From Cryomorphaceae bacterium (GTDB lineage: Bacteria > Bacteroidota > Bacteroidia > Flavobacteriales_D > Parvicellaceae): a stretch of DNA of 64,000 nucleotides. Both the position numbers and the translations under genes were made by a program. Under the pieces are notes generated by a model, which saw nothing but the letters and a program-made list of their open reading frames with translations, made no database searches and had not been told where the DNA came from. The stretch is taken from the NCBI GenBank assembly GCA_905182525.1, contig CAJJBV010000006.1:62001-126000 (forward strand), read 5' to 3'. Below are positions 14,064-16,469 of this stretch, piece after piece; within the stretch, counting starts at the first letter, position 1, and every line of letters begins with the position of its first letter.

Positions 14064-14127
14064 TCTTATAAAATTATATATATTTTTAACTGTAAGTTTA
14101 TATTGGCAGTAATTATTCTAGTTTGTA

Positions 14128-14158
14128 TTTGGATAAAACATATAATTCACTATTTTTG
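14128..14158 (+). promoter_or_regulatory. Bacteroidota-type promoter for rpsA
   Basis: TTTG at 14128-14131 and TATTTTTG at 14151-14158 are separated by 19 bases, matching the Bacteroidota consensus TTTG-N19-TAnnTTTG. It lies 84 bases before the rpsA start, leaving a leader of roughly 75 bases. Confidence 0.65.
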
Positions 14159-14241
14159 ACGCCCATTAAATACTTGACGGTTCAAGTAAATTAACCACTC
14201 TTAAGATAAACCGTTATCTGAGATACAAAAATATCAGCCCT

Positions 14242-16422
14242 ATGGCCGAAGATAAAAAACCCAAATCAGCTGCAAAAAAACCTGCAGCAACTACTAAAAA
14301 AACTACAGCAAAGAAAGCTGCACCTGCAAAGAAAGCTGCACCTGCTGCAAAGAAAGCTGCACCTGCTGCAAAGAAAGCTGCACCTGCTGCAAAGAAAGCT
14401 GCACCTGCTGCAAAGAAAGCTGCACCTGCTGCAAAGAAAGCTGCACCTGCTGCAAAGAAAGCTGCACCTGCTGCAAAGAAAGCTGCACCTGCTGCAAAGA
14501 AAGCTGCACCTGCTGCAAAGAAAGCTGCACCTGCTGCAAAGAAAGCTGCACCTGCTGCAAAGAAAGCTGCACCAGCAAAGGTTGAAGCTACTTCTAAATC
14601 CATGGAAGATGTTATTCCTTCAGGTGAAGTAATTCAAGAAAAAGCAGTTGCCCCAACTCCAAAAAAGAAAGTATCTACTGCTTTTGATTGGGATGCTTTT
14701 GAAGCAGAAGAAGCAGACACTTATACTTCAAGTGAAAGAACCAAGTTAAACGACATGTATGATGGTACTCTTACTCAAATTGAAGAGAAATCATTAATTC
14801 AAGGTTTAGTCATTGCAATCACCAAAAAAGAAGTTGTAATAAATATCAATTATAAAAGTGAAGGCGTAGTTCAAAAAAACGAATTTAGATACAATCCCGA
14901 TTTAGCTATTGGCGATTCTGTTGATCTTTTCATTGAGAATATGGAAGATAAAACAGGTCAATTGGTAGTATCTCACAAAACTGCAAGAACGCATTTAGCT
15001 TGGATTAGAGTTAACGAAGTTTTAGGAACTGGTGAAATCATTACTGGACATGTTAAATGTAGGACTAAGGGGGGGCTAATTGTCGATGTTTTTGGAATTG
15101 AAGCATTTTTACCCGGTTCTCAGATAGATGTAAAACCTATTAGAGATTACGATCTATTTGTTGGAAAAAACATGGAATTCAAAGTTGTTAAAATCAACAA
15201 AGAGTTTAAAAACATTGTTGTTTCTCACAAAGCGCTTATCGAAGCAGAGATCGAAGAACAGAAAAAACAAATTATGTCTGGTCTTGAAAAAGGACAGGTA
15301 TTGGAAGGTATTGTTAAAAACATCACTTCCTACGGAGTATTTATTGATTTAGGTGGAGTAGATGGTTTAATTCACATTACAGATTTATCTTGGGGAAGAG
15401 TCAATCATCCAGAAGAACTGGTGACTTTAGACGAGAAAATCAAAGTAGTTATTCTTGATTTTGATGACAATAAGAAACGTATTGCATTAGGCTTAAAACA
15501 ACTTTCTGAACATCCATGGGATTCTCTTAACAAAGACTTAAAAATTGGTGACAAGGTTAAGGGTAATGTTGTGGTAATTGCAGATTACGGTGCATTTATT
15601 GAAATTGCTGCTGGTGTTGAAGGACTGGTTCATGTTTCTGAAATGAGCTGGAGTCAGCATTTAAGAACTGCAAACGATTTCCTTAAGGTAGGTGACGAAG
15701 TTGAGGCCATGGTATTAACCCTAGATAAAGAAGAAAGAAAAATGTCTTTAGGTATTAAGCAATTAATACCAGATCCATGGGAAAACATTGATAAAAAATA
15801 CCCTGTACAATCTAACCATACTTCAAAAGTTAGAAACTTCACCAACTTTGGTGTTTTTGTTGAATTAGAAGAAGGAATTGATGGTTTAATACACATTTCT
15901 GATCTTTCTTGGGACAAGAAATTCAAGCATCCTTCAGAATTTTGTAATGTAGGTGATGAATTAGACGTTGTAGTATTGGAATTAGATGCTGAAAACAGAA
16001 GATTAAGTTTGGGTCATAAACAACTTCAAGAAAATCCTTGGGATGTTTACGAAACAGTTTTCACTATGAATTCTACTCATGATGGTACAGTAATTAAGTT
16101 AAAGGATAAAGCTGGTATTGTATCTATGGAATATGGTGTAGAGGCTTATTGTCCTGCAAAGCACATGAAGAAAGAAGACGGTTCTTATGTTGGTGCTGAA
16201 GAAAAAACACAATTTGTAGTTTTAGAATTTAACAAAGAATCTAAAAAAATATTAGTTTCTCATACTAAAGTTTGGGGTGAGGTAGAAGCTAAAAAAGCAA
16301 AAACTACTGCATCTAAAACTTCTAGAGCTGTAAGAAGCATTAACGATTCTAGAGAAAAAACCACCCTTGGTGATTTAGAAGCATTATCTGCTTTAAAAGA
16401 CAAAATGGATAAAGGGAAGTAA
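14242..16422 (+). CDS. rpsA: 30S ribosomal protein S1 with Lys-Ala-Pro repeat N-terminus
   Basis: S1 binds mRNA on the 30S subunit and helps start translation. After residue 180 the protein contains six S1 OB-fold repeats. The last four are most regular, with motifs such as SYGVFIDLGGVDGLIHITDLSWG, each followed by a KKRIALGLKQL-like end. Before them is a tail of about 115 residues in which KKAAP occurs 13 times, mostly as KKAAPAA, making a highly basic, flexible arm like histone H1 or AlgP tails. A short acidic linker follows. The total of 726 residues exceeds the usual Bacteroidota S1 (roughly 600). A strong terminator follows the stop, so the gene is monocistronic. Confidence 0.95.
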   Translation: MAEDKKPKSAAKKPAATTKKTTAKKAAPAKKAAPAAKKAAPAAKKAAPAAKKAAPAAKKAAPAAKKAAPAAKKAAPAAKKAAPAAKKAAPAAKKAAPAAKKAAPAAKKAAPAKVEATSKSMEDVIPSGEVIQEKAVAPTPKKKVSTAFDWDAFEAEEADTYTSSERTKLNDMYDGTLTQIEEKSLIQGLVIAITKKEVVININYKSEGVVQKNEFRYNPDLAIGDSVDLFIENMEDKTGQLVVSHKTARTHLAWIRVNEVLGTGEIITGHVKCRTKGGLIVDVFGIEAFLPGSQIDVKPIRDYDLFVGKNMEFKVVKINKEFKNIVVSHKALIEAEIEEQKKQIMSGLEKGQVLEGIVKNITSYGVFIDLGGVDGLIHITDLSWGRVNHPEELVTLDEKIKVVILDFDDNKKRIALGLKQLSEHPWDSLNKDLKIGDKVKGNVVVIADYGAFIEIAAGVEGLVHVSEMSWSQHLRTANDFLKVGDEVEAMVLTLDKEERKMSLGIKQLIPDPWENIDKKYPVQSNHTSKVRNFTNFGVFVELEEGIDGLIHISDLSWDKKFKHPSEFCNVGDELDVVVLELDAENRRLSLGHKQLQENPWDVYETVFTMNSTHDGTVIKLKDKAGIVSMEYGVEAYCPAKHMKKEDGSYVGAEEKTQFVVLEFNKESKKILVSHTKVWGEVEAKKAKTTASKTSRAVRSINDSREKTTLGDLEALSALKDKMDKGK
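14308..14579 (+). repeat. In-frame 21-base tandem repeats in rpsA
   Basis: A 21-base unit (gctgcaaagaaagctgcacct) repeats essentially without change. It gives 13 occurrences of Lys-Lys-Ala-Ala-Pro, the first and last spaced slightly differently. The near-identity at DNA level implies recent expansion by slippage or recombination. Because the unit is a multiple of three, copy-number change would alter tail length without breaking the frame. Long antisense frames here are by-products of the repeat. Confidence 0.95.
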
Positions 16423-16441: not shown

Positions 16442-16469
16442 AAAACCGCTCAATGAGCGGTTTTTTTTT
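16442..16469 (+). terminator. Rho-independent terminator of rpsA
   Basis: A perfect stem AAAACCGCTC / GAGCGGTTTT with a 3-base loop is followed directly by a run of T. It starts 20 bases after the rpsA stop. Confidence 0.92.

Follow-up and report, generated by a model that had tools for sequence, protein, structure and literature searches.

A lysine-rich tandem-repeat arm on ribosomal protein S1 and a conserved kissing-loop leader upstream of rpsA in a member of the Bacteroidota

Introduction

The window, a stretch of 64,000 nucleotides from the genome of a Cryomorphaceae bacterium (Bacteroidota; Flavobacteriales_D; Parvicellaceae; GenBank assembly GCA_905182525.1, contig CAJJBV010000006.1, positions 62,001 to 126,000), carries rpsA, the gene for ribosomal protein bS1 (S1). 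The product of this gene begins with a lysine-rich arm made of tandem repeats, and its start codon is preceded by a conserved leader element in which two hairpins can be joined by a loop–loop, or kissing, helix (Table 1). The leader is the more novel of the two; the arm represents a familiar kind of tail, newly placed on a known protein. In Bacteroidota, according to one proposal, S1 takes over the part of Shine-Dalgarno pairing (PMC6847099), which gives interest to how its RNA affinity and its level are set. Orthologues whose arms are acidic, neutral or positive while the core is conserved provide a natural experiment on S1 electrostatics. The kissing-loop leader opens a concrete, testable way into the control of S1 where Shine-Dalgarno pairing is lacking, and would represent a new type of ribosomal-protein leader. 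The arm suggests a way in which a tandem array could change a ribosomal protein's charge rapidly without leaving the frame.

Table 1. Features of the rpsA locus; positions are those of the window.
Feature	Position	Strand	Remarks
Probable promoter, TTG-N19-TATTTTTG	14129..14158	+	Bacteroidota type; upstream of the rpsA leader
Leader hairpin P1, TACTTG [ACGGTT] CAAGTA	14171..14188	+	
Kissing strand 1, ACGGTT	14177..14182	+	P1 loop; pairs with 14209-14214
Leader hairpin P2, TCTTAAGATAAACCGTTATCTGAGA	14199..14223	+	
Kissing strand 2, AACCGT	14209..14214	+	P2 loop
ATACAA box	14223..14228	+	3′ foot of P2; anchor for the leader collection
rpsA	14242..16422	+	Ribosomal protein bS1, 726 aa
Array of 13 units coding AKKAAPA	14308..14577	+	Within the basic arm; translation; bounds by Tandem Repeats Finder 14308-14573
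FDW-helix segment	14683..14769	+	Residues 148-176; conserved; precedes OB domain 1
Six S1/OB domains	14794..16260	+	Residues 185-673; model secondary structure, NCBIfam
Terminator-like hairpin and T run	16442..16468	+	3′ of rpsA

The S1 core

An initial annotation of the sequence had described the rpsA product as an S1 with six domains that is normal outside its repeats, and this description stands. The protein matches the bS1 equivalog NCBIfam NF004953 with 874.6 bits (cut-off 720). The whole protein matches three Pfam families, every one of them S1/OB, with four stretches significant on their own against Pfam S1, and the best 25 of the 30 NCBIfam families that match it are S1 or S1-domain proteins. 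An AlphaFold model made from 42 sequences (mean predicted local distance difference test score, pLDDT, 69.6; predicted template modelling score, pTM, 0.43) has six OB strand blocks, at residues 185-244, 267-328, 353-417, 438-504, 525-591 and 612-673, mostly with a pLDDT of 75-89. Residues 1-145 contain no secondary-structure element in the model and have a pLDDT below 50. Within the FDW segment, which the model furnishes with helices at residues 150-157 and 163-176, F148 and W150 are invariant in an alignment of 42 sequences. Judged by its position, this segment is likely to dock onto uS2; S1 of E. coli rests on uS2 with its domain 1 (PMC6847099; PMC3858243). The match to the nearest solved chain, 9zcd_A (591 aa), is limited to residues 146-724.

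Structure and covariation of the rpsA leader

Alignment of the region 5′ of rpsA reveals a conserved element at 14170-14228, in which an AU-rich spacer separates P1 from P2 and the ATACAA box is followed by the start codon at a distance of 13 nt. The box lies at most 60 nt from the start in 84 of the 111 rpsA genes with a complete start, which yields 54 non-redundant leaders; the leader tests cover these. The 27 leaders without the anchor are mostly of Bacteroidales, going by record titles. Most of the Bacteroidales loci L071-L089 (L079, L085 and L088 excepted) are among those devoid of ATACAA, and by eye many of them have a motif resembling TTAAACnnCTAGT about 20 nt before the start (L-numbers denote S1 loci of relatives, G-numbers genomes).

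P2 forms at least six contiguous pairs in 49 of the 54 leaders, compared with 38% of swapped strands. For the kissing interaction, the mean loop-loop score of 53 leaders is 14.8 with their own partner, compared with 11.35 (standard deviation 0.31) in 20,000 leader permutations, the highest of which reached 12.65. The score of a single leader is less decisive because many loops share CGG/CCG, and the leader's own upstream strand is the sole best partner in only 4 of 53 cases and among the top tenth in 28. Taken together, P1 and the kissing helix outscore shuffles that preserve dinucleotides (mean 28.0 vs 18.5). Of the 53 leaders, 41 reach p<=0.05 and 20 reach p<=0.01, whereas 12, including L037, L121, L152 and L174, miss the p<=0.05 level. 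These wider tests of P1 and the kissing helix were carried out leader by leader with swaps and shuffles, because MAFFT aligned P1 only within part of family f1.

The full structure can be counted in a family alignment of 11 sequences, the window included, where 96.5% of the cells are paired. Changes on both sides of a pair occur in 28 cells, compared with 9.4 in shuffled alignments and at most 7 in slid versions of the structure, a comparison that is favoured by the structure having been drawn from the same 11 sequences. Two other measures do not stand out, namely pairs with double changes (7 vs 5.5, with 87 of 500 shuffles as high) and further pair types (13 vs 15.7). Within this alignment, both-side changes are seen at three of the five P1 pairs counted, with all cells paired, and at three of the six pairs of the loop-loop helix, with 95.2% of cells paired. 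The outer P2 helix alone, followed through 31 sequences, has 12 both-side-changed cells vs 2.4 after shuffling, a value attained in none of 500 shuffles. Across the order, taken here as Flavobacteriales, the leader is conserved and covaries strongly, and we regard it as almost certain that it is a conserved RNA structure.

Range and novelty of the leader

A covariance model of the leader, R1, was made from 31 sequences, five of them from the genus that was then searched, and comprises only five pairs, those of the outer P2 helix. In the genus search 150 of the 385-805 first-look candidates per genome were scored. Among the scored candidates of its own genome, the rpsA leader is the sole hit at E<=1 (E 4e-8). 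In the genus, 8 of the 11 genomes have one hit below 1e-5, and five of these eight contribute to R1. The hit lies on the contig of the rpsA core in G000, G003, G005, G007 and G009, and next to the start of an rpsA gene, close to where the contig ends, in G001, G002 and G010; a weaker hit in G006 (E 0.008) likewise precedes rpsA. The leader thus corresponds to what defines a leader of ribosomal-protein genes, a covarying RNA structure consistently upstream of such a gene. It occurs with basic, acidic and short arms alike and is therefore independent of the kind of arm.

At the gathering thresholds, Rfam 15 has no hit in the window or in the loci of 20 relatives, and at E<=10 region 14100-14320 gives just four minus-strand hits (E 3.8-7.8) that fall far under gathering. 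In a survey of ribosomal leaders from 2020, the visible S rows of Table 1 list S4, S6:S18, S15 and S16 and no S1, and the term 'bS1' is absent from the main text (PMC7247131; the supplements lie beyond this statement). The visible parts of a motif table from 2010 contain no rpsA motif, nor does 'rpsA' occur in its main text, again with the supplements set apart (PMC2864571).

The closest known counterpart is the folded rpsA leader of gamma-proteobacteria, which is repressed by S1 (PMC10931766). Both are folded initiation regions with AU-rich single strands and no canonical Shine-Dalgarno sequence, and in gamma-proteobacteria S1 is the autogenous repressor (PMC10931766). The leader described here differs in having two hairpins and a loop-loop helix and in belonging to another phylum and to no Rfam 15 family. 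Because of the gamma-proteobacterial precedent S1 is the likeliest ligand, and by this analogy we lean towards S1 binding to the kissing-loop leader, whose function would then probably be autoregulation of S1.

The tandem array and the N-terminal arm

Translation places 13 KKAAP units at residues 24-111 (starting at residues 24, 30, 37 and so on up to 107), within the first 115 residues as had been annotated. Tandem Repeats Finder (TRF) gives the array a period of 21, 12.8 copies, a match of 98% and a score of 511; only two further arrays are reported in the window, with scores of 56 and 54. The near-absence of variation between DNA copies is also borne out. Eleven of the 13 units have the sequence GCAAAGAAAGCTGCACCTGCT, the exceptions being unit 1, which passes into unit 2 after 18 bases, and unit 13, which has two base differences. 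Residues 1-115 have a net charge of +31 from 34 lysines and no arginine, as expected of the polycationic arm that had been postulated, and the remainder of the protein has a net charge of -19. Among the 67 ATG-started open reading frames of at least 80 aa in the window, rpsA is alone in having a 40-residue stretch of net charge >=+12.

With up to two mismatches allowed, the unit occurs 13 times in its own genome (2.19 Mb in 6 contigs, 96% complete), always within rpsA. A chance origin of the array was rejected, since the reversed-pattern control occurs nowhere in this genome. The idea of further such arms in the genome was likewise rejected: a search with the tail finds the rpsA place only, in a search whose composition filters could hide some. 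Nor does the array RNA qualify as a structured element, as it folds worse than shuffled sequences (z +2.43, with 199 of 200 shuffles folding equally well or better). Avoidance of A tracts in the codons of lysine pairs was dismissed as a weak signal, AAA-AAA encoding 57 of 208 KK in basic arms vs 53 of 147 in their cores. On the minus strand, an open frame of 129 aa with GAAFFAA repeats (14214-14603) lies opposite the array and mirrors its codons; it has no sign of being a gene.

Orthologues with a complete start open with MAE/MADD...KK at the same position, and the leader is conserved at an almost fixed distance from the start in relatives. Conservation of both start and leader makes translation of the arm very probable.

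Arms within the genus

The genus set consists of 11 genomes, one genome per species. An arm or part of one was found in ten, and it is lysine-rich in all ten; in G008 neither S1 nor the leader was found at the thresholds used. In the relatives, the best TRF units measure 27 (AAAKKAAPK), 33, 36 (KKAAPAKKATTA), 48, 51 and 54 bp and are present in 1.9 to 6.0 copies; L013 has a different 21-bp unit in 1.9 copies, and the 33-bp unit also reaches 1.9 copies only. No TRF array is found in the 152 available bases of the G010 arm. A further 21-bp unit, AKKTTTA in 7.0 copies, is present in L036 of the sister genus. The uniform 21-base array is a property of this species only, and the lysine-rich arm is common to the genus relatives with arm sequence. 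For every genus array the best period is a multiple of 3, and the predicted in-frame turnover of units is thus apparent between species. The initial annotation had named a fixed repeat number with diverged sequence in relatives as the pattern that would speak against it. Only half of this pattern is observed, since the sequence has indeed diverged but the number varies from one species to the next.

The fourfold sites of the core differ from those of the nearest relative, L010, at 76 of 191 positions (40%). Set against the near-uniform units, this divergence indicates a recent expansion of the array, much younger than the species split. The assemblies of five of the ten genomes with an arm are broken inside it (G001, G002, G004, G006 and G010). 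The leader contig ends 152-241 bases past the ATG in G001, G002, G006 and G010, and the core contig starts inside the arm in G002, G004 and G006. The five assemblies have 50-210 contigs per 1.3-2.2 Mb, and by our own estimate no more than about 5% of such assemblies should be broken within a particular stretch of 400 bp; long near-identical arrays are therefore probably common in the genus. In L035/L113, indels upstream of the S1 core break the frame within the lysine-rich arm region and leave the core intact; these are probably consensus errors of that assembly.

The same breaks, together with the frame of L035, raise the question of an artefact, in which the assembly collapsed or expanded the array or the true start codon lies beyond it. 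The copy number comes from one assembly of unknown read type and may itself be off, and the next in-frame ATG of rpsA is codon 121, right after the arm, which would suit a late start and speaks against the arm as part of the protein. We nevertheless deem an artefact very improbable, as the window's own contig, one of six, runs uninterrupted through the array, intact relatives carry arms with other units, and both the MAE... start and the leader spacing are conserved.

Arm charge across Bacteroidota and a proposed role

We give an even chance to the reading that the arm is a disordered, lysine-only polycation on a hypervariable S1 linker, kept positive in its clade, and that it acts as a non-specific electrostatic tether for RNA. 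Comparison between species shows that Bacteroidota S1 has a hypervariable linker of low complexity between the MAE... start and the FDW segment, in which in-frame arrays vary with the species. In the family clade the linker remains strongly positive as the length and sequence of the unit change, and the present species has a recent 21-base expansion. Leaving the uS2-anchored end of S1, presumably on the 30S platform to judge by position, the arm would be attracted to the phosphates of mRNA and rRNA and so raise the residence of S1 on the 30S subunit. Its length would be only loosely set, because composition is kept and sequence is not, and its expression would probably be governed by the kissing-loop leader at 14170-14228. 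Such a tether could be useful where S1 is loosely bound and Shine-Dalgarno pairing is absent. Loose binding of S1 is the case in F. johnsoniae, where adding S1 brought a twofold rise in reaction amplitude on an mRNA without a Shine-Dalgarno sequence (PMC9976891).

A wider scheme, which we consider rather unlikely as a whole, would have Flavobacteriales, which lack Shine-Dalgarno pairing, control S1 through a kissing-loop leader bound by free S1, with the charge of the arm, positive probably more than once, setting both RNA affinity and the set-point of the feedback. The coupling of leader feedback to the arm is speculative.

Several observations weigh against the tether. They come in part from a sample of 118 distinct S1 genes, enriched for long frames, from which duplicates and 10 distant loci were taken out. 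Its order-level portion is biased and consists of the best 30 loci of at least 222 matching genomes, 26 of them already in the sample, plus 40 with open frames of at least 643 aa. Rows left out are L095-L104, which are distant and either Verrucomicrobial or unplaced, entries duplicated among the collections, L128-L130, which lack the start, L087 and L088, whose cores are short and which are absent from the tree only, and L035, whose frame is broken and which carries no label. No single S1 match at E<=1e-150 is present in 5 of 176 near-complete genomes from this order (e.g. G062), where S1 may have diverged or be spread over several contigs. With basic defined as a net charge >=+5 and acidic as <=-5, 18 extensions are basic, 61 acidic and 36 short or neutral, and three genes have no readable start; among the 64 extensions of at least 60 aa, 45 are acidic, 18 basic and one neutral. 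As arms are mostly acidic or short in the Bacteroidota genes read, RNA binding by the arm is no general need, and by this comparison of genes S1 as such can do without a positive arm. A compensating acidic tail on uS2 was also considered and rejected: the C-terminal tails have net charges of -6 to +1 in the 30 that were read (one cut short) of 34 matching genomes, and they are alike in basic-arm and other genera (nine genera). Moreover, S1 had little effect on initiation at rpsU in F. johnsoniae, so that its role depends on the mRNA (PMC9976891).

The basic arms are almost lysine-only (K 28%, R 0.1%), and TRF arrays are present in 20 of 22 basic arm pieces (G002 and G006 counted twice, as 5′ and 3′ halves) vs 22 of 60 others. 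Acidic arms form arrays as well, such as EEEAPEVVAEEAAAEPVA in L042 (54 bp, 4.8 copies) and AAEEAPAEEAP in L176 (33 bp, 5.8 copies). Acidic tandem-array arms were noted in L042 (2551-3039), L043, L091 and L176, with units of 54, 18, 54 and 33 bp and net charges of -28 to -47. Alternating lysine-rich and glutamate-rich blocks make up the arms of L163 and L173 (genus g12, family f4; 165 and 145 aa, net -5), and L140, L141 and L142 (genus g50, family f8) have KK(T/A)-rich basic arms that stand apart from the f1 arms on the core tree.

On this tree (113 rows, quick method) the label 'basic' takes 3 changes compared with a shuffled mean of 17.0, with none of 500 shuffles as low. This clustering of the charge sign favours the tether, although close relatedness by itself produces clustering of labels; that it is also expected if arms merely inherit their composition counts against the tether. 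The basic-arm genes are located in family f1 (genera g1-g5) and in genus g50 of family f8. A single clade of all 18 is rejected by the approximately unbiased test (p 1.2e-68, on the quick tree and for a group picked after the trait was seen). Basic arms probably arose at least twice; given the lack of monophyly and a minimum of three changes, two or three gains make the simplest story, and an early gain with many losses may be the alternative history.

The serious rival to the tether is neutral turnover with inherited composition, which explains much of this pattern and to which we assign somewhat less than an even chance. The linker would tolerate any soluble disordered sequence and slippage would expand whatever unit is present, the sign of the charge reflecting inherited inertia and AT bias, without function. 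The prevalence of acidic, short or mixed arms in the relatives read, the acidic tandem arrays and the mixed-charge arms of two species all accord with it. All 18 basic-arm genes are moreover AT-rich, with a GC content at third codon positions (GC3) of 0.16-0.31 in the core, and composition may thus contribute. AT bias as the whole cause was rejected, since 13 genes classed as acidic, among them the mixed L163 and L173, are similarly AT-rich (core GC3 <=0.30); low GC does not force a basic arm. Against neutral turnover stand also the retention of a lysine-rich arm in ten of ten genus genomes while its units were replaced, and the fact that basic arms are not a single clade.

Comparison with known lysine-rich tails

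The likeness to AlgP and H1-like proteins that had been suggested holds for composition, the arm being a disordered Lys-Ala-Pro-rich repeat tail by sequence and model, and fails for homology at the level of family models: the tail alone matches no Pfam and no NCBIfam family at E<=10, in a search whose HMMER filters may drop weak matches. AlgP/PhaF of Pseudomonas share a long, strongly positive, disordered Lys-Ala-Pro repeat tail that is a mutational hot spot (PMC9239181), but there the tail is C-terminal on an alpha-helical protein and here it is N-terminal on a ribosomal protein, with no family-model relation found. Chlamydia Hc2 and Bordetella BpH1 also have lysine-rich repeats that are gained and lost in frame by duplication and deletion; they are H1-like DNA-binding proteins with size variation within species (PMC2848022), whereas the present comparison is between species. 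In actinobacterial TopA, lysine repeats on a conserved nucleic-acid enzyme are reported to confer processivity (PMC7398561), although these are C-terminal, on a DNA enzyme and in a different phylum. Other Bacteroidota bS1 proteins share the six-domain core, the FDW segment and the hypervariable N-terminal position, and differ in the extension, which is acidic or short in most of the genes read.

A role of this kind, in which the arm binds DNA or polyphosphate as AlgP, PhaF and H1-like tails do and links ribosomes or free S1 to the chromosome or to granules, appears improbable to us. The composition of the arm is near that of the AlgP KPAA tail, and KPAA peptides bind DNA, the tail being required for granule spacing (PMC9239181). 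However, no H1 or AlgP model matches, the one HU-family protein of the genome is untailed, and for S1 the nearest polyanion is RNA and the site of work is the 30S subunit. A lysine-rich S1 arm was not met with in titles or opening lines of abstracts, a coverage that mostly excludes subscription papers, and the accessible text of a study from 2019 of S1-protein disorder does not contain 'lysine', 'extension' or 'Bacteroid' (PMC6566611).

Flanking features of rpsA

The probable promoter upstream of the leader follows what we take to be the Bacteroidota-type consensus TTG...TAnnTTTG, a type outside the scope of the sigma-70 scan. It is almost identical in L010, L011 and L013 and less similar in L016 and in other genera. 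With a terminator-like hairpin at its 3′ side, rpsA appears to be monocistronic, and the next gene is an open reading frame that, from its sequence, we take to be sucD.

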